From Actinospica robiniae DSM 44927 (lineage in GTDB: Bacteria; Actinomycetota; Actinomycetes; Streptomycetales; Catenulisporaceae): DNA of 64,000 nucleotides. The stretch covers positions 7,298,154 through 7,362,153 of the forward strand of contig NZ_KI632511.1 of assembly GCF_000504285.1 (NCBI RefSeq), given 5' to 3'. This document shows, piece by piece, positions 14,284-62,201 of this stretch (position 1 is its first letter; each line of letters starts with the position of its first letter). The notes under the pieces were generated by a model, which made no database searches, had not been told where the DNA came from, and was given only the letters and a program-made list of their open reading frames with translations. The position numbers and the translations under genes were made by a program.

Positions 14284-15237
14284 TCAGCTGCCGTAGCGAC
14301 GTGCCAGCTTGCGGACCAGCAGACCACCGCCGCCGAGCACGCCCGCGCCGAACGGGGCCATGACGGTGCCCGTGCCGACGCCGGTCTGCGCCAGGGTGCC
14401 GCCGTGCGTGCCGGTCGGGCCGGTCGAGCCGTGCGTGCCACCCGTCGGGGGGACCTTGCCGGGAGCGCTCGGAGTGGCCGGCGCGCTCGGGGTCCACGGC
14501 GCCGTCGGCGTCGCCGGCGAGGACGGTGTGCTCGGCGCGGTCGGCGTCGTCGAGGTCGGCGTCGGCGTCGGGTGGCAGCCGCACGTCGGCGGGGCCAGGG
14601 TGCGCGGCGGACTCACCGGCGGGGAGGGCGGACGCACCGAGCCGCCGTTGGAGCAGGTGTTGTCGAACGCCGCGTCACCCACGCCGACACCGCTGGCGGA
14701 GTTGCCGCAGACGTTGAGCGGCGTGCTGATGGGCAGCTGGACGGTGTTCCCGGAGCCCAGGCCGGGCGAGCTGTGTGAGCCGCCGTGCGCGCTCGCGCCG
14801 TTCGAGCCGTGGCCGCCGCCGTTCGAGCACGTGTTGTCGAACGCCGCGTCACCCACGCCGACACCGCTGGCGGAGTTGCCGCAGATGTTGACGGGGACGT
14901 CGATCGGGGCCTGGACCAGGTTGCCCGAGACGGCGCCGGGTGAGTCCTTCGCCGCACCGTGCGCGCTCGACGCGTTCCCACCCGGCGCGCCCGCGTTGCC
15001 GCAGTGGTTCCCGGCCGCCGTGTCGAACGCGCCGATCACGTCGATGACGTTGCCGCAGACGTTGATCGGGGCGTCGACCGGGGCCTGGACCAGGTTGCCG
15101 GACAGCAGGCCGGGCGAGTGCGCGGCGCCGCCCTCGGCCGAGGCGTCGGCCTGGGCCACGCTCATGCCGACGCCGGTGAGCAGCAGCCCGCCGGTGGTCA
15201 TGCCGAGCACGACGCGCCGTTTCGTCGAGTGGTGCAT
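14284..15237 (-). CDS. Long chaplin with three chaplin domains and a sortase signal
   Basis: This secreted, wall-anchored chaplin contributes to the hydrophobic amyloid sheath of aerial hyphae and spores. A signal peptide of about 30 residues ends at AQADA. Three chaplin domains follow, each with SPG-SGN-VQ-P, a VCGN or ICGN strand and a second Cys in NxC. A Pro/Thr linker leads to the sortase motif LAQTG, a hydrophobic stretch and the basic tail KLARRYGS. The start at 15237 has the ribosome site AGAGGTAGG. Long chaplins ChpA-C of S. coelicolor have two domains; three is unusual. A short chaplin gene lies upstream on the same strand. Confidence 0.9.
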   Translation of the reverse strand: MHHSTKRRVVLGMTTGGLLLTGVGMSVAQADASAEGGAAHSPGLLSGNLVQAPVDAPINVCGNVIDVIGAFDTAAGNHCGNAGAPGGNASSAHGAAKDSPGAVSGNLVQAPIDVPVNICGNSASGVGVGDAAFDNTCSNGGGHGSNGASAHGGSHSSPGLGSGNTVQLPISTPLNVCGNSASGVGVGDAAFDNTCSNGGSVRPPSPPVSPPRTLAPPTCGCHPTPTPTSTTPTAPSTPSSPATPTAPWTPSAPATPSAPGKVPPTGGTHGSTGPTGTHGGTLAQTGVGTGTVMAPFGAGVLGGGGLLVRKLARRYGS

Positions 15238-58186: not shown

Positions 58187-58780
58187 ATGCCCTCGCGTGG
58201 ATCTCGCGCGCTCGTCGCGGCGCTGTCGGTGGGCGCGGTTACCCTTCTCGCAGTGGGAGCCTGCTCGAGCTCGGCGCATCCTCGGGCCGCGGCGAGCTCG
58301 GCCGCGCCCACGCCCACTCCCGCGCCCACTCCCGCGCCCAGGAGTTCGCCGGTGTCGATGACGCTGACGAGCTCGGCGTTCCACGGCTACGGCAAGATCC
58401 CGGCCGCCTACACCTGCGACGCCCCGAGCGGCGCGGCCGCCTCGCCCCCGCTGAAGTGGAGTGGCATGCCCGCGGGCACGGCCTGGCAGGCGCTTTACGC
58501 CTACGACAACACCGGATCGGTGGTGCACTGGGTCCTGATGGACCTCAAGCCGGCCGTCAGCAACCTGCCGGCCGACACCACCGGGAGCGCCGTGGTGGTC
58601 ACGAACTACCTGCCGATGTGCCCGGGGGCGGGCAACACGGACCAGTACCAGTTCACGGTCTACGCCGAGCCCGCCGACTACCATCCGCCCAAGGTCGCCG
58701 GGATGTACGCGGTGGATCCGGATCAGCTCGCCGCGCACGCGCTGGGTATCGGCACCCTGCTCGGGTACTACTCGCAGTAG
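58187..58780 (+). CDS. YbhB/YbcL-type PEBP lipoprotein
   Basis: This 197-residue lipoprotein has a lipobox VGACSS with Cys at about residue 26, a Pro/Thr/Ala linker, and the Raf-kinase-inhibitor (PEBP) fold: SAFHGYGKIPAAYTCD, SPPLKWSGMPAGT, GSVVHWVLMDLKP and QYQFTVYA. The usual ligand pocket DPDAP is not clear. It starts 7 nt after the XRE gene stop, so co-transcription is likely. Function in bacteria is unknown. Confidence 0.9.
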   Translation: MPSRGSRALVAALSVGAVTLLAVGACSSSAHPRAAASSAAPTPTPAPTPAPRSSPVSMTLTSSAFHGYGKIPAAYTCDAPSGAAASPPLKWSGMPAGTAWQALYAYDNTGSVVHWVLMDLKPAVSNLPADTTGSAVVVTNYLPMCPGAGNTDQYQFTVYAEPADYHPPKVAGMYAVDPDQLAAHALGIGTLLGYYSQ

Positions 58781-58796
58781 GCCGCGGGTCGCGGCG

Positions 58797-59885
58797 TCAT
58801 GCCGTCAGAACCGTTGCCCGGACGGGCAATGCCGCCGGCAGCCGGCTCCCGCCGAACACCGCGCGGCTGGCCGGTTCCCCGCCGAGCACGGCGAGCGCGA
58901 GCAGCAGCGAGCCTGCCGTCCAGGACGTCTTCTCCTCGGGCCACACCGCCTTGTCGGTGAAGACATAGCCGGTCCAGTACAGCCCGTCCTGATCGCGCAG
59001 GTGCTGCGCGTCCGCCAGCAGGCGCTTGGCCTGCCCGGAACGCCCCATCGCCCACAGGGCGATGCAGAGCTCGAATGTCTCACCGCCGGTCACCCACGGG
59101 CGATCCGCCACACAGCGCGTGCCGAGTCCGGGCACCACGAACCGGTCCCAGCCCTCGTCGATGCGCGCGTGCGCGGCCTCGCCCCGCAGGGCCGTGCCGA
59201 GCACCGGGTAGTACCAGTCCATCGAGTAGCGGTCCTTGGGGGCGAACACCCCGGGCGCCTCGTCCCGGCCGGCCGCGGCCACCGTTTCGCCGAGGCGCAC
59301 CGCCGCGTCGGTCCAGTCGCCGGCCAGCCGTCGCCCGGCGACCCCGCCCACGCGCAGGGCCAGCGCCACCGCGCAGCGCAGCGCCTGGTACATCGAGCTC
59401 GACCCGGTCAGCAGCGCCTCGTCCGTGTCCGGGTTCCACCGGATCGCGCCGTCCGGACGCTGGAGTTCGAGCACGAACTCGGTCGCCTGCCGCACCGTCG
59501 GCCACAGCTGCGTCGCCAGGTCCATGTCGCCGGTGGCCACCAGGTGGTGGTACGCGCCGACGGCGAGGTACGCGCTGAAGTTCGCGTCCTTCGTCTTGTC
59601 CGCGGCCTCGGCGGCGCCCTCGGCGGTGTCGGCGTAGTTGGCGTACCAGGAGCCGTCGCAGTTCTGGCGGCTCGCCAGCCAGCGGTACGCGTCGGCCGCC
59701 AGCCCCGGCAGGCCCGCGGCGGTCAGCGCCATCGCGGACTCGACGTGGTCCCAGGGATCGGTCTTGTCGCCGTGGAACCACGGGATCGAGCCGTCCGGCC
59801 GCTGCAGCGCGACGATTCGCCGGACGGTGCGGTCGATCGCGGGCCGGTCGAGCAGCCCGGCGCGGGCCAGTAGCGCGACGCTCAT
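58797..59885 (-). CDS. Alpha/alpha-barrel protein of the prenyltransferase/six-hairpin type
   Basis: This 362-residue protein shows repeated helical hairpins with QRPDGSIPWFHGDKTDPWDHVE, RQNCDGSWYANY, LQRPDGAIRWN and WVTGGETFELCIALWAMGR. The QxxDGSW-type repeats occur in squalene/prenyltransferase-like and six-hairpin glycosidase folds; Streptomyces copies are labelled prenyltransferase. It is the last gene of the glycosyltransferase-methyltransferase operon. Its ATG 59885 overlaps the stop of the third mini-ORF of the upstream repeat (ATGA), so translation is coupled through the repeat. Confidence 0.75.
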   Translation of the reverse strand: MSVALLARAGLLDRPAIDRTVRRIVALQRPDGSIPWFHGDKTDPWDHVESAMALTAAGLPGLAADAYRWLASRQNCDGSWYANYADTAEGAAEAADKTKDANFSAYLAVGAYHHLVATGDMDLATQLWPTVRQATEFVLELQRPDGAIRWNPDTDEALLTGSSSMYQALRCAVALALRVGGVAGRRLAGDWTDAAVRLGETVAAAGRDEAPGVFAPKDRYSMDWYYPVLGTALRGEAAHARIDEGWDRFVVPGLGTRCVADRPWVTGGETFELCIALWAMGRSGQAKRLLADAQHLRDQDGLYWTGYVFTDKAVWPEEKTSWTAGSLLLALAVLGGEPASRAVFGGSRLPAALPVRATVLTA

Positions 59886-59962
59886 GACACCGCCTCGCCG
59901 ACGCTCGCCGGGCGCATTCGCGCAAGCACTGTGTTCACCGATTCGCTCGCAAGCTCGCTCAT
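59882..59962 (-). CDS. Mini-ORF 3 of the repeat
   Basis: This copy differs from the other two by VG for AS near its C terminus. Its stop overlaps the ATG of the alpha/alpha-barrel gene. Confidence 0.5.
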   Translation of the reverse strand: MSELASESVNTVLARMRPASVGEAVS

Positions 59963-60039
59963 GACACCGCCTCGCTGGCGCTCGCCGGGCGCATTCGCGC
60001 AAGCACTGTGTTCACCGATTCGCTCGCAAGCTCGCTCAT
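59959..60039 (-). CDS. Mini-ORF 2 of the repeat
   Basis: The encoded peptide is identical to mini-ORF 1, with ATGA overlaps at both ends and GAGGCGG before its ATG. Confidence 0.5.
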   Translation of the reverse strand: MSELASESVNTVLARMRPASASEAVS

Positions 60040-60116
60040 GACACCGCCTCGCTGGCGCTCGCCGGGCGCATTCGCGCAAGCACTGTGTTCACCGATTCGC
60101 TCGCAAGCTCGCTCAT
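60036..60116 (-). CDS. Mini-ORF 1 of the repeat
   Basis: This 26-codon frame starts at the ATG overlapping the methyltransferase stop (ATGA) and ends overlapping the next mini-ORF. Whether the peptide accumulates or only serves as a translational relay is unknown. Confidence 0.5.
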   Translation of the reverse strand: MSELASESVNTVLARMRPASASEAVS

Positions 60117-60826
60117 GCGCGCTTGGCCGCGTAGACGACCAGGCTCTTGCCCAGCACCGGATTGAGCAGGGACTCGCCGATCCTGGTGGTCTTCGGGCCC
60201 TTCATGATGTCCCACACCAGCATCCGGTGGTACGCCTGGACCATGCGCGAGGCGTCGTTGTCCACCCCCACCGCGCATTTGAGCCACCAGTACGGCGAGT
60301 GCAGCGCGTGCGCGTGGTGCGAACCGTAGGGGGCGAGCTTGACCGCGCGCAGCCGCTCCAGGATCTGACCGCGCCGGTAGATCCGCACATGCCCGCCCTC
60401 GACCTCGTGGTACGCGTCCGACAGCGACCAGCAGACTTTCTCCGGGAACCAGCGCGGCACCGTGACGGCCAGTTTCCCGCCGGGTTTGAGCACCCGTTCG
60501 AGCTCTGCGAAAGCGCGTTCGTCCTCCGGCAGGTGCTCGAGCACCTCGGCCGCCACCACCTTGTCGAAGCTGCCGTCCGGGAACGGCAGCCGGTAGGCGT
60601 CGCCGCGCACGGCCAGGTACGCGGCCGACTCCGGCACCTCTCCGGCCTCGCGCATGGCCGCGAACATCGCGGCCACCGACTCCATCTCCGACATCGAGTG
60701 ATCGAGGGCGACGACGTCGGCTCCCTTGCGCAGCAAGGCGAAGGAGTGCCGGCCCGCGCCGGCGCCGAGGTCGAGCACCCGCTCGCCGGGCATGATCGGG
60801 AAGCGGTCGAAGTCGACGGTCAGCAT
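60113..60826 (-). CDS. Class I SAM-dependent methyltransferase
   Basis: This 237-residue methyltransferase has the UbiE-like SAM loop RVLDLGAGAGRHSFALLRKGADVVALDHS, then LPFPDGSFDKVVAAEVLEHLPEDERAFAELERVLKPGGKLAVTVP, textbook Methyltransf_11. The C-terminal half has Trp/Tyr-rich segments (HHAHALHSPYWWLKCA) that may set substrate choice. It lies 85 bp downstream of the GT4 gene, and its stop overlaps the first mini-ORF. It may methylate a glycosylated product of the operon. Confidence 0.92.
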   Translation of the reverse strand: MLTVDFDRFPIMPGERVLDLGAGAGRHSFALLRKGADVVALDHSMSEMESVAAMFAAMREAGEVPESAAYLAVRGDAYRLPFPDGSFDKVVAAEVLEHLPEDERAFAELERVLKPGGKLAVTVPRWFPEKVCWSLSDAYHEVEGGHVRIYRRGQILERLRAVKLAPYGSHHAHALHSPYWWLKCAVGVDNDASRMVQAYHRMLVWDIMKGPKTTRIGESLLNPVLGKSLVVYAAKRA

Positions 60827-60911
60827 GCGGTCTCCGGAGTGGGTCGGTGACGGATTGCCGTGCGTGGTGCCGATCGCCGGTGCGCGGGCGAGGCGGCGCC
60901 CGCGCGGCGGC

Positions 60912-62201
60912 TCAGCACGTCTGGTCCAGCACGGCGCGGTAGCGCTCGGCCGTGGCCGCGGCGGCGGCCCGCCAGGTGAACCGGGTCGCCGCGCGCTCGC
61001 GCGCCGCGGCACCGAGCCGCTCGCGCAGGGCGGCGTCGCGCAGCAGCCGGGTGAGTGCTCCGGCCAGCGCCTCGGCGTCGCCGGGGGGCACCGCGAGCGT
61101 GGTGTGGCCGTCCTGGCCGGCCACCTCGGGGATCGCGCCGCCGGTGGTGGACACCAGGGGCAGCCCCACGGCCATCGCCTCCACCGCGGGCAGCGAGAAA
61201 CCCTCGTACAACGAGGGTACACAGGCGATCTCGGCGGAGCGCAAGGTATGTACGAGCTCTTCTTCGCTCAGCCCGGACACGAACCGGACCCGGCCGCCGA
61301 GCCCGTAGCGCTCGATCGCGCGCTCCACCGTGCCGCCCGGCTTCGGCTTGCCGATCACGGTCAGCTCGGCGTGGTCGAACTCGGCGCGCACCTTGGCGAA
61401 CGCCTCCACCAGCACGCCCAGGCCCTTGAGCGGGGAGTCGGCGCTGGCGGTGGTCACGATCCGCCCGGGCACCCGCGCGACGGACGCGTCGGGGCTGAAC
61501 CGCTCCACGTCCGTGCCGATCGGAATGGTGCTGATCCGCTCGGGGCGCACCCCGTAGTGCTCGGTGATCTGCGCGGCCGAGCTGGAGGAGACGGTGATCA
61601 CCTCGGGCAGCCGGCGCGCGACGCGCCCCTGCATCTTGGTGAAGCCGTACCAGCGCCGCAGCGTCACCCGGCGCAACCCGGTCACGGTGGCGAGCTCGAG
61701 CGCGCGGTCGACCTGGATCGGATGATGGATGGTGGCTATCGTCGGCAGGCCGAGCCGCGGCAGGCGCAGCAGGCCGTAGCCGAGGCACTGGTTGTCGTGT
61801 ACGAGGTCGAACTCGCGCCGGCGCACCGCGAGCAGCCGGGCCGCCCGCAGCGAGAAGGTGGTGGGCTCGGGGAAGCCCGCGGTCCACATCGTGCCGACCT
61901 CGAGCAGGTCGATCAGGTCGCGGTACTCGCGCAGGCCGGGCGTGCGGAACGGGTCCGGCTCGCGGTACAGGTCGAGGCTCGGCACCGGGGTGAAGCCCAC
62001 ACCCGGGTCGAGTTCGGGGTAGGGCTGTCCGGCGAACACCTCGACGGCGTGGCCGAGCGCGGCGAGCTCCCGGGAGAGATTGCGGGTGTAGACCCCCTGG
62101 CCGCCCGAGTAGGGGTTGCCCCGATAACACAACAGCGCGATGCGCAGCGCGTTCTCATCGAACGCGGCACGACGTGTCACGCCCGACTCCTCGCTACCCA
62201 T
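60912..62201 (-). CDS. Family 4 glycosyltransferase
   Basis: This 429-residue GT-B enzyme starts with the donor-independent N-domain YRGNPYSGGQGVYTRNLSRELAALGHAVEVF and has the GT4 C-domain PLKGLGVLVEAFAKV, CVPSLYEGFSLPAVEAMAVGLPLVSTTGGAIPEV (EX7E-type motif). It heads the operon with the methyltransferase and alpha/alpha-barrel protein. ATG 62201 is chosen. The sugar and acceptor are unknown; synthesis of a methylated surface or storage glycan is one possibility. Confidence 0.92.
   Translation of the reverse strand: MGSEESGVTRRAAFDENALRIALLCYRGNPYSGGQGVYTRNLSRELAALGHAVEVFAGQPYPELDPGVGFTPVPSLDLYREPDPFRTPGLREYRDLIDLLEVGTMWTAGFPEPTTFSLRAARLLAVRRREFDLVHDNQCLGYGLLRLPRLGLPTIATIHHPIQVDRALELATVTGLRRVTLRRWYGFTKMQGRVARRLPEVITVSSSSAAQITEHYGVRPERISTIPIGTDVERFSPDASVARVPGRIVTTASADSPLKGLGVLVEAFAKVRAEFDHAELTVIGKPKPGGTVERAIERYGLGGRVRFVSGLSEEELVHTLRSAEIACVPSLYEGFSLPAVEAMAVGLPLVSTTGGAIPEVAGQDGHTTLAVPPGDAEALAGALTRLLRDAALRERLGAAARERAATRFTWRAAAAATAERYRAVLDQTC

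Follow-up and report, generated by a model that had tools for sequence, protein, structure and literature searches.

A MIRU-like family of short, probably mobile repeats at start codons in Actinospica robiniae and other actinobacteria

Why should three nearly identical 77-bp units stand in tandem between two bacterial genes, with reading frames that appear to join one gene to the other? The question is raised by a 64,000-nucleotide stretch of the Actinospica robiniae DSM 44927 genome, referred to here as the window. On its minus strand, TRF reported a repeat with a period of 77, 3.1 copies, 98% matches, and a score of 464, and exact reading of the units placed the array at positions 59886 to 60116. 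Unit 1 (60040 to 60116) and unit 2 (59963 to 60039) are identical in sequence; unit 3 (59886 to 59962) carries 2 substitutions. Each unit is a 26-codon open reading frame (ORF) running from an ATG to the TGA inside the next ATGA (mini-ORF of unit 1, MSELASESVNTVLARMRPASASEAVS). Read along the minus strand, the end of a methyltransferase gene, GCGC-ATGA, is followed by the three units of 77 bp and then by ATGAGCGTCGCG, the start of a gene for 362 amino acids. The upstream gene, a SAM-dependent methyltransferase (60113 to 60829, minus strand; Pfam Methyltransf_11; start codon placed by eye), ends in the first ATGA of the array, with its stop inside the ATGA of unit 1 in a -4 overlap. The TGA of unit 3 overlaps the ATG at 59885 of the downstream gene (58797 to 59885, minus strand), for which matches to oligosaccharide amylase and squalene-hopene cyclase stayed below the curated cutoffs. 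A Shine-Dalgarno-like GAGG lies 7 nt ahead of all three next ATGs (in unit 1, nt67 to 70, positions 60047 to 60050), and none precedes the first ATG. An earlier note on this DNA had claimed three 77-bp copies with 26-residue peptides and ATGA overlaps, which TRF and the unit reading confirmed, and a GAGGCGG before the next ATG, which contains the GAGG just described. Its placement of the array between the methyltransferase stop and the next gene start also stood, but its span of 59881 to 60116 is corrected to the one given above. Two further repeats were observed: one with a 174-bp period at window positions 14641 to 15118 (2.7 copies, 77% matches; TRF), and an array of four 77-bp units (L043, G000:C1:7297154-7297465) about 0.7 kb ahead of the first base of the window, flanked by genes that were named by eye as ABC permease-like and ABC ATPase.

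Tandem repeats are common in the window, for which TRF lists 36 rows, and the array could in principle be a chance tandem duplication or an assembly artefact without function. The first 36 nt of the unit had no match with up to 3 mismatches in 100 shuffles of the window. With 40 of 107 candidates scored, a BLASTN search for the array gave at least 42 matches in the genome, a single contig of 9.92 Mb. A model built from the sequences of 43 units (A1/R1) returned 72 matches in the same genome at E values up to 1; the 57 with E values up to 0.0022 were retained, and 15 weaker ones were left out. These 57 units are distributed over 39 loci: 27 loci have a single hit, 7 have two, 4 have three, and 1 has four, and one of the two-hit loci consists of a unit and a 38-nt fragment. 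Unit sizes range from 71 to 80 bp, with 1 to 4 copies per locus. Because the units lie at 39 loci of a single-contig genome and occur in many genera, and because sites are empty in a relative (see below), the artefact reading can be practically dismissed. The earlier note would have been undermined by a lack of other copies in the genome or in relatives; 57 units at 39 loci and copies in further actinobacteria were found.

At 37 of the 39 loci, the units form mini-ORF chains whose last stop overlaps, as RTGA, the start of an ORF of at least 90 codons; four such downstream ORFs extend past the locus end, and at one locus a GTG four bases inside a decayed start was used. One of the remaining two loci is fused in frame to the gene, and the other stops elsewhere. 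As a control, the same succession of mini-ORF, RTGA, and ORF of at least 90 codons was found at 11 of 480 RTGAGC sites (2.3%) in 400 kb of the A. robiniae genome. At 21 of the 39 loci, the first RTGA holds the stop of a coding-like ORF lying upstream, compared with 28 of 330 coding-like ORF ends generally; this looser baseline replaced a gene caller that was too strict (it called 223 genes over 400 kb and placed 8 of 124 same-direction pairs at -4). Two further loci have long upstream ORFs that fail the GC3 filter, and at one of them, L002, a relative supports the overlap. Some other loci lie directly 3' of a -10-like hexamer, as at leaderless starts (by eye). Since not all loci have an upstream ORF ending in the first RTGA and some look leaderless, the target seems to be the start codon and not the stop-start overlap alone. 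The downstream genes look unrelated (nuoC, nuoD, nuoH, hemA, asd, purH, and transporters; names by eye). Three separate insertions were seen in what is apparently a single complex I operon, at nuoB/nuoC (L015), nuoC/nuoD (L024), and nuoG/nuoH (L018), likewise named by eye.

Sixteen A. robiniae junctions were compared with two genus-mates, G001 and G002, the latter being more distant by protein identity. Fourteen could be aligned in G001; the joined query of L040 gave no match and that of L027 a weak one (73%), and neither was used. Twelve of the 14 junctions are empty in G001, 11 of them clean with colinear flanks and one (L020) with diverged flanks. Of the other two, L033 shows an element-like gene start, and L023 was called neither empty nor occupied. 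The empty window junction (L284) reads AAGCGCGC-ATGAGCGTC, the empty nuoC/nuoD junction (L240) GAGCTACCG-ATGAGCGTG, and the empty rex/hemA junction (L262) GTTGCCGGC-ATGAGCCTG, with gene names assigned by eye. Genus g2 likewise shows nothing but an ATGA overlap at the window junction (e.g., L287 and L294). Because 12 of the 14 alignable junctions of the sister species are without the insert, the unit is, judged from these alignments, mobile and lands precisely at start codons. G002 has element sequence at four junctions occupied in A. robiniae (window, L002, L039, and nuoB/nuoC), which at the window and L002 junctions reads in frame into the gene (by eye). Its presence at the same junctions implies that these sites were hit repeatedly or that the element was lost in G001. 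Sites occupied in A. robiniae account for two of the seven loci fetched in G001 (7 hits) and four of the 14 fetched in G002 (16 hits). At a site occupied in both species, which precedes a dop-like gene (by eye) and whose flanks are about 95% alike, A. robiniae has 3 units and G001 has 1. Copy number can therefore change, as the earlier note had claimed, here between two species at an orthologous site; the search of the complete genome and of relatives that it had proposed yielded this difference together with the dispersed copies and the empty sites.

The family extends well beyond the genus. A 23-nt pattern was found in at least 119 stretches of named genomes, and all 80 among the matches listed are actinobacterial, with Kutzneria, Pseudonocardia, Actinoplanes, Nocardia, Rhodococcus, Mycolicibacterium, Trebonia, Blastococcus, and Acidimicrobiales MAGs represented among them. 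The unit is present in Actinospica durhamensis (NZ_JAGSOG010000230.1). A wider model, R2, had hits with E values up to 1e-4 in at least 44 of 393 sampled class members including A. robiniae itself (at least 43 of the 392 others), a lower bound with at most 11 candidates scored per genome. Distribution within the actinobacteria is patchy. Ten genomes of genus g2, probably Catenulispora, comprised nine without a hit and one with a single marginal hit, and G036 and G054 (f2/g4; Streptomyces by inference) and G015 carry a type mostly beginning with MSERSER, 77 or 80 bp long. In an Acidimicrobiales MAG (L130), units that share the 5' end measure 101 and 95 bp, representing longer forms in a distant order, and two Phytohabitans loci, L115 and L119, also resemble a longer form. 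When the 74- and 77-bp units of listed, named loci were compared together with the A. robiniae 77-mers, the nearest neighbour was of the same genus in 79 of 83 cases. In A. robiniae, the variable part of the units differed by 0.13 within arrays and by 0.28 between arrays (9 and 694 pairs, respectively). As neighbours are mostly of the same genus and differences within arrays are smaller, it is to be concluded from these comparisons that arrays grow locally and that bursts are lineage specific.

The 119 stretches hold 138 occurrences of the pattern, and RTGA at -4 closes 111 of these. They lead into an ORF of at least 90 codons in 86 cases, another unit in 14, an ORF truncated by the end of the locus in 2, and a short ORF in 9. 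Among the other 27, 22 either read through into a long ORF or stay open to the locus end, and the remaining 5 show neither behaviour. These 22 occurrences indicate that strict coupling is not needed everywhere. At 19 of the 138 occurrences, the element start leads directly into an ORF of at least 100 codons, so that the protein gains an N-terminal extension of the MSELASES type (L094, L126, L136, L167, and others).

If the units are translated, either the peptide or the reading frame itself could be what matters. Extraction that was independent of frame, requiring only the tail and RTGA, recovered 53 A. robiniae units (the fused and the odd locus are absent from this set), and all 52 with a start codon are open to the junction, at lengths of 77, 71, 74, and 80. 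In the variable part of the 43 A1 units, the mini-ORF frame has no stop in 728 codons, compared with 20.1 expected from a first-order model, while the other two frames have 26 (17.6 expected) and 17 (17.8 expected). The 95 distinct units from other loci, obtained with the 23-nt pattern, which fixes neither length nor frame, and after dropping units without a tail, have 1 in-frame stop in 1,578 codons (27.8 expected) and 32 and 19 stops in the other frames (23.2 expected in each). Because the copies are related, these expectations are guides and not exact probabilities. Length modulo 3 was 2 in 85 of these 95 units, 0 in 6, and 1 in 4. In a second frame-free test, 48 of the 138 occurrences had no recognisable tail, and the other 90 fell into 80 with 2 modulo 3, 7 with 0, and 3 with 1, one of these three being a mis-called tail. 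One set of lengths that is 2 modulo 3 by construction was kept out of the evidence.

An open ORF in 52 of 52 units with an intact start would suit a family of functional 26-amino-acid peptides upstream of many genes, as would the somewhat more variable third positions in nt61 to 77 of the A. robiniae 77-mers (0.73 bits, compared with 0.57 and 0.56 at first and second positions). Between nt25 and nt60, however, variability at codon positions 1, 2, and 3 is 0.79, 0.86, and 0.55 bits in A. robiniae and 1.46, 1.46, and 1.31 bits in other genera, the reverse of what a conserved peptide would leave. Pairs of +1 and -1 changes keep the length and alter the peptide, and the first 18 nt are conserved with their wobble positions included. 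Small proteins of this kind are thus very improbable, and this reading was set aside because middle third positions are less variable than first and second ones. What is preserved, with no stop in 728 in-frame codons, is the reading frame and not the peptide.

The unit also has structure in the nucleic acid. RNAalifold alone gave almost no consensus fold, and a structure surfaced through a scan of column-pair covariation. In alignment columns, it comprises 14 pairs, on the left within 1 to 22 and on the right within 46 to 82 and 52 to 73, with 93.0% of cells paired. We counted 38 double changes, compared with 10.3 in shuffled alignments (reached in 0 of 500) and 2 to 10 in slid controls, a comparison biased in favour of the structure, which was named after viewing the same sequences. 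Further pair types numbered 18, compared with 15.2 when shuffled, a value that 11 of 500 shuffles attained. In two copies, the left stem shows compensated changes, A-U at 5-18 in one and U-A at 6-17 in the other (L017 and L033, by eye). The right hairpin, which spans nt52 to 73 (60044 to 60065, minus strand, in unit 1, where 55-70 is the single mismatch), carries the GAGG in its 3' arm. Its median RNA energy is -9.4 kcal/mol (38 units; range, -11.8 to 4.8), and it is kept in the minimum-energy fold of nt42 to 81 in 30 of the 38 units; the median for the left hairpin is -0.2 kcal/mol. U-G is the commonest pair at 53-72 (27 of 43). Folded as single-stranded DNA, five of seven whole units were no more stable than shuffles (z values of 1.53, 0.84, 0.83, -0.20, -1.78, 0.56, and -1.41). 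Taken together, the covariation indicates that the Shine-Dalgarno site is held in a compensated hairpin.

A hairpin of this stability over a Shine-Dalgarno site, in units that sit at gene starts, is also what a regulatory leader would look like, an attenuator or uORF switch that controls the genes downstream. Those genes look unrelated by their names (assigned by eye), a close relative lacks the insert at these sites, and Rfam returned no match up to an E value of 1 at the window site (58700 to 61200). Such a leader is accordingly an unlikely account, and the attenuator was set aside for the unrelated genes and the missing Rfam match.

A scan of 725 column pairs in 40 distinct A. robiniae 77-mers revealed a second kind of covariation, which involves the start codons themselves. 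The pairs nt47-nt78 and nt1-nt22 top all other long-range pairs, and only short-range pairs around nt42 to 48 score higher. On the left, the first base of RTGA (nt1) covaries with the last base of an internal GAAY motif (nt22); in unit 1, this left guide is ATGAGC...GCGAAT, nt1 to 22 (60095 to 60116, minus strand). A. robiniae has 36 A-T, 12 G-C, 2 A-C, and 2 G-T pairs and one unit with C, the four exceptions being inner units of tandem arrays (by eye). Other genera have 82 A-T, 42 G-C, 6 A-C, and 8 G-T (P = 8e-21). On the right, nt47, the last base of a second guide (GCGAAT in unit 1, nt42 to 47, positions 60070 to 60075, minus strand), covaries with the R of the right RTGA, nt78, with 22 A-T, 11 G-C, and 7 other combinations in A. 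robiniae, 4 of these 7 having the motif shifted by one base. In nine A. robiniae units the two ends differ; the left motif agrees with the left start in 9 of 9 and the right motif with the right start in 8 of 9, and neither motif agrees with the opposite end in any. On trees built without the test columns, and with units dropped whose test bases are not A/G and C/T (for the right side, 32 of 38 A. robiniae units and 66 of all 94 were kept), joint changes were fewer than in shuffles. A. robiniae units required 10 on the left (8 and 9 singly; shuffled mean, 16.2) and 6 on the right (5 and 6; 13.1), and all units together required 22 (17 and 19; 39.6) and 14 (11 and 13; 29.8), respectively. In other genera, 43 of 54 motif-bearing units follow the right-hand rule (P = 8.5e-6), the motif is absent in 41 of 95 units, and the association is not significant when split by the left base (P = 0.15 and 0.11). 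Since the motif is often missing there and the stratified association is not significant, evidence for a right guide outside Actinospica is weak.

Which of the two start codons belonged to the gene before insertion can be read where the ends are unlike. At eight such loci with a readable relative, the start codon of the relative matches the right end in seven (L005, L014, L020, L023, L031, L032, and L039) and the left end in one (L002), as judged by eye. It appears from these matches that the unit brings its own left RTGA and inserts ahead of that of the gene, whose first base agrees with the internal right motif. A guided choice at insertion would explain this agreement directly; the alternative is later compensation in the RNA hairpin. 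The left exceptions, as often A-C as G-T, lean against a constraint on RNA only at that end, and the common U-G inside the right hairpin leans towards RNA.

Derivatives of IS200/IS605 and REP/RAYT elements have hairpins, a fixed tetranucleotide at the insertion site, and an internal motif that pairs with the tetranucleotide. The Actinospica unit resembles them in its hairpins, its fixed site tetranucleotide, and an apparently matching internal motif. It could accordingly be imagined as a non-autonomous single-stranded DNA element of the IS200/IS605 type that depends on a Y1 (HUH) transposase for its movement, RTGA being cleaved and GAAY serving as the guide. The covariation of the tetranucleotide at both ends with internal motifs speaks for this, as do the tandem G-A pairs and GNA-type loops seen in hairpins of the Streptomyces-like and G015 type (by eye) and left exceptions that are A-C and G-T in about equal numbers (6 and 8 in other genera, 2 and 2 in A. 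robiniae). For an internal guide matching both ends, as in IS200/IS605, the record is mixed: in the A. robiniae units with unlike ends the motifs agree (9 of 9 left, 8 of 9 right), and in other genera the agreement is strong on the left, and the missing motifs and stratified P values given above apply to the right side. Unlike those elements, the unit encodes a mini-ORF overlapping the next start, is located at start codons, and lacks a Y1 transposase (PF01797) in the three genus members: A. robiniae, G001, and G002 gave no hit in a search in which 17 of 60 genomes, A. robiniae counted among the 60, did. IS200/IS605 elements retain their target on the 5' side of the strand that moves; here the original start appears at the right end in 7 of 8 cases (by eye), opposite to a simple top-strand model, and would be compatible only with the other strand. 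In addition, the prevalence of U-G at 53-72 fits RNA at least as well. We regard this origin as doubtful. Comparison with MITEs, which are short, dispersed, and without an enzyme gene, gives a similarly mixed picture: the Actinospica unit is short, enzyme-less, and dispersed, but terminal inverted repeats were not seen by eye in its consensus, and a target duplication would be indistinguishable from the shared RTGA(GC).

The closest parallel is offered by the mycobacterial interspersed repetitive units (MIRUs), reportedly described by Supply et al. in 1997. MIRUs are units of roughly 50 to 100 bp that lie singly or in tandem between genes, and their insertion sites are stop/start DTGA sequences. 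We know of no explanation for how they move. Actinospica units, at 71 to 80 bp and 1 to 4 copies between genes, are like them; they also share the RTGA overlap with the next start (37 of 39 loci), empty sites in a relative, and a copy number that differs, 3 versus 1, between two species at one orthologous site. The earlier note had drawn this analogy from size, overlapping mini-ORFs, intercistronic position, and variable copy number, and it is borne out genome-wide. The sequences differ. Seventeen loci were picked with a pattern taken to be the MIRU core; this pattern occurs in 13 genomes of genus g8, taken as Mycobacterium by inference, and at one place each in two others, and the reversed pattern had no hits. 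R2 matches the core in 17 of 17 loci, only over about 30 nt around GAGCGNAGCGA, with scores of 4.0 to 10.7 bits (best E value, 0.036) that are at noise level, an unrelated place scoring 10.1 bits. Membership of the family in the MIRUs by sequence was therefore set aside. Core spacing is 51 in one array with the MIRU core, and unlike MIRUs, the Actinospica family is found far outside the mycobacteria. The MIRU-core matches L333 to L351 read CAGAGC-GNA-GCGATG with all four bases at N, in the same GA/GNA style as the 3' end of the family (by eye). Passages of a 2025 review describe MIRUs as apparently mobile short mycobacterial repeats with insertion at start codons and an inner ORF coupled at -4, and insertion as probably having little effect on the gene, so that harm is limited (PMC12548453). 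According to a paper on an M. tuberculosis gene, what exactly such repeats do is poorly understood (PMC2734929). Among the literature matches listed, no title or opening of an abstract described such repeats outside mycobacteria or the unit sequence, and one could have been missed; the accessible portion of PMC4633059 mentions no such repeats, and that of PMC4255298 is unrelated. The comparison supports the view that the family works like MIRUs, and MIRUs could conceivably represent a diverged line of such elements, both having a GA-GC-GNA-GC-GA hairpin motif (by eye).

We therefore consider it highly probable that the array consists of copies of a unit of about 77 bp, mobile and non-autonomous, whose points of insertion are exactly the RTGA start codons, often also the stop of the preceding gene; the coupling of translation is inferred. 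Support at the level of sequence comes from precise insertion, dispersed copies, tandem copy change, a mini-ORF open to the next RTGA, the Shine-Dalgarno-like GAGG, a covarying hairpin, and RTGA start codons that at both ends covary with internal GAAY motifs. The mini-ORF would be translated by a ribosome that has just completed the upstream gene or has begun on a leaderless mRNA; in doing so, the ribosome would open the Shine-Dalgarno hairpin and re-initiate at the overlapping RTGA with which the next unit or gene begins. Insertion would then be nearly silent for expression, and copies could be added in steps of 77, 74, 80, or 71, all 2 modulo 3. The right GAAY motif would help to choose or fit the target start codon. 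Because the start codon covaries with GAAY, also on the tree, and the compensated hairpin holds the Shine-Dalgarno site, the data suggest guide-like targeting together with coupling-dependent re-initiation. A more specific proposal, which we put forward only tentatively, is a guide-directed, start-codon-seeking element in which GCGAAY pairs with the target RTGAGC, one base picking ATG or GTG, and in which this pairing and the Shine-Dalgarno hairpin tie translation of the gene to ribosomes that have read the mini-ORF.

These findings have a bearing on annotation, where "proteins" of about 26 amino acids and N-terminal extensions such as MSELASES or MSERSERI are probably element sequence. What is new here beyond the MIRU kind is the covariation of the start codon with GAAY and the compensated Shine-Dalgarno hairpin. 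A MIRU-like family in soil actinobacteria, with dozens of copies, empty sites, and clues to the target at the level of single bases, makes both the coupling model and the mobility of such units testable.
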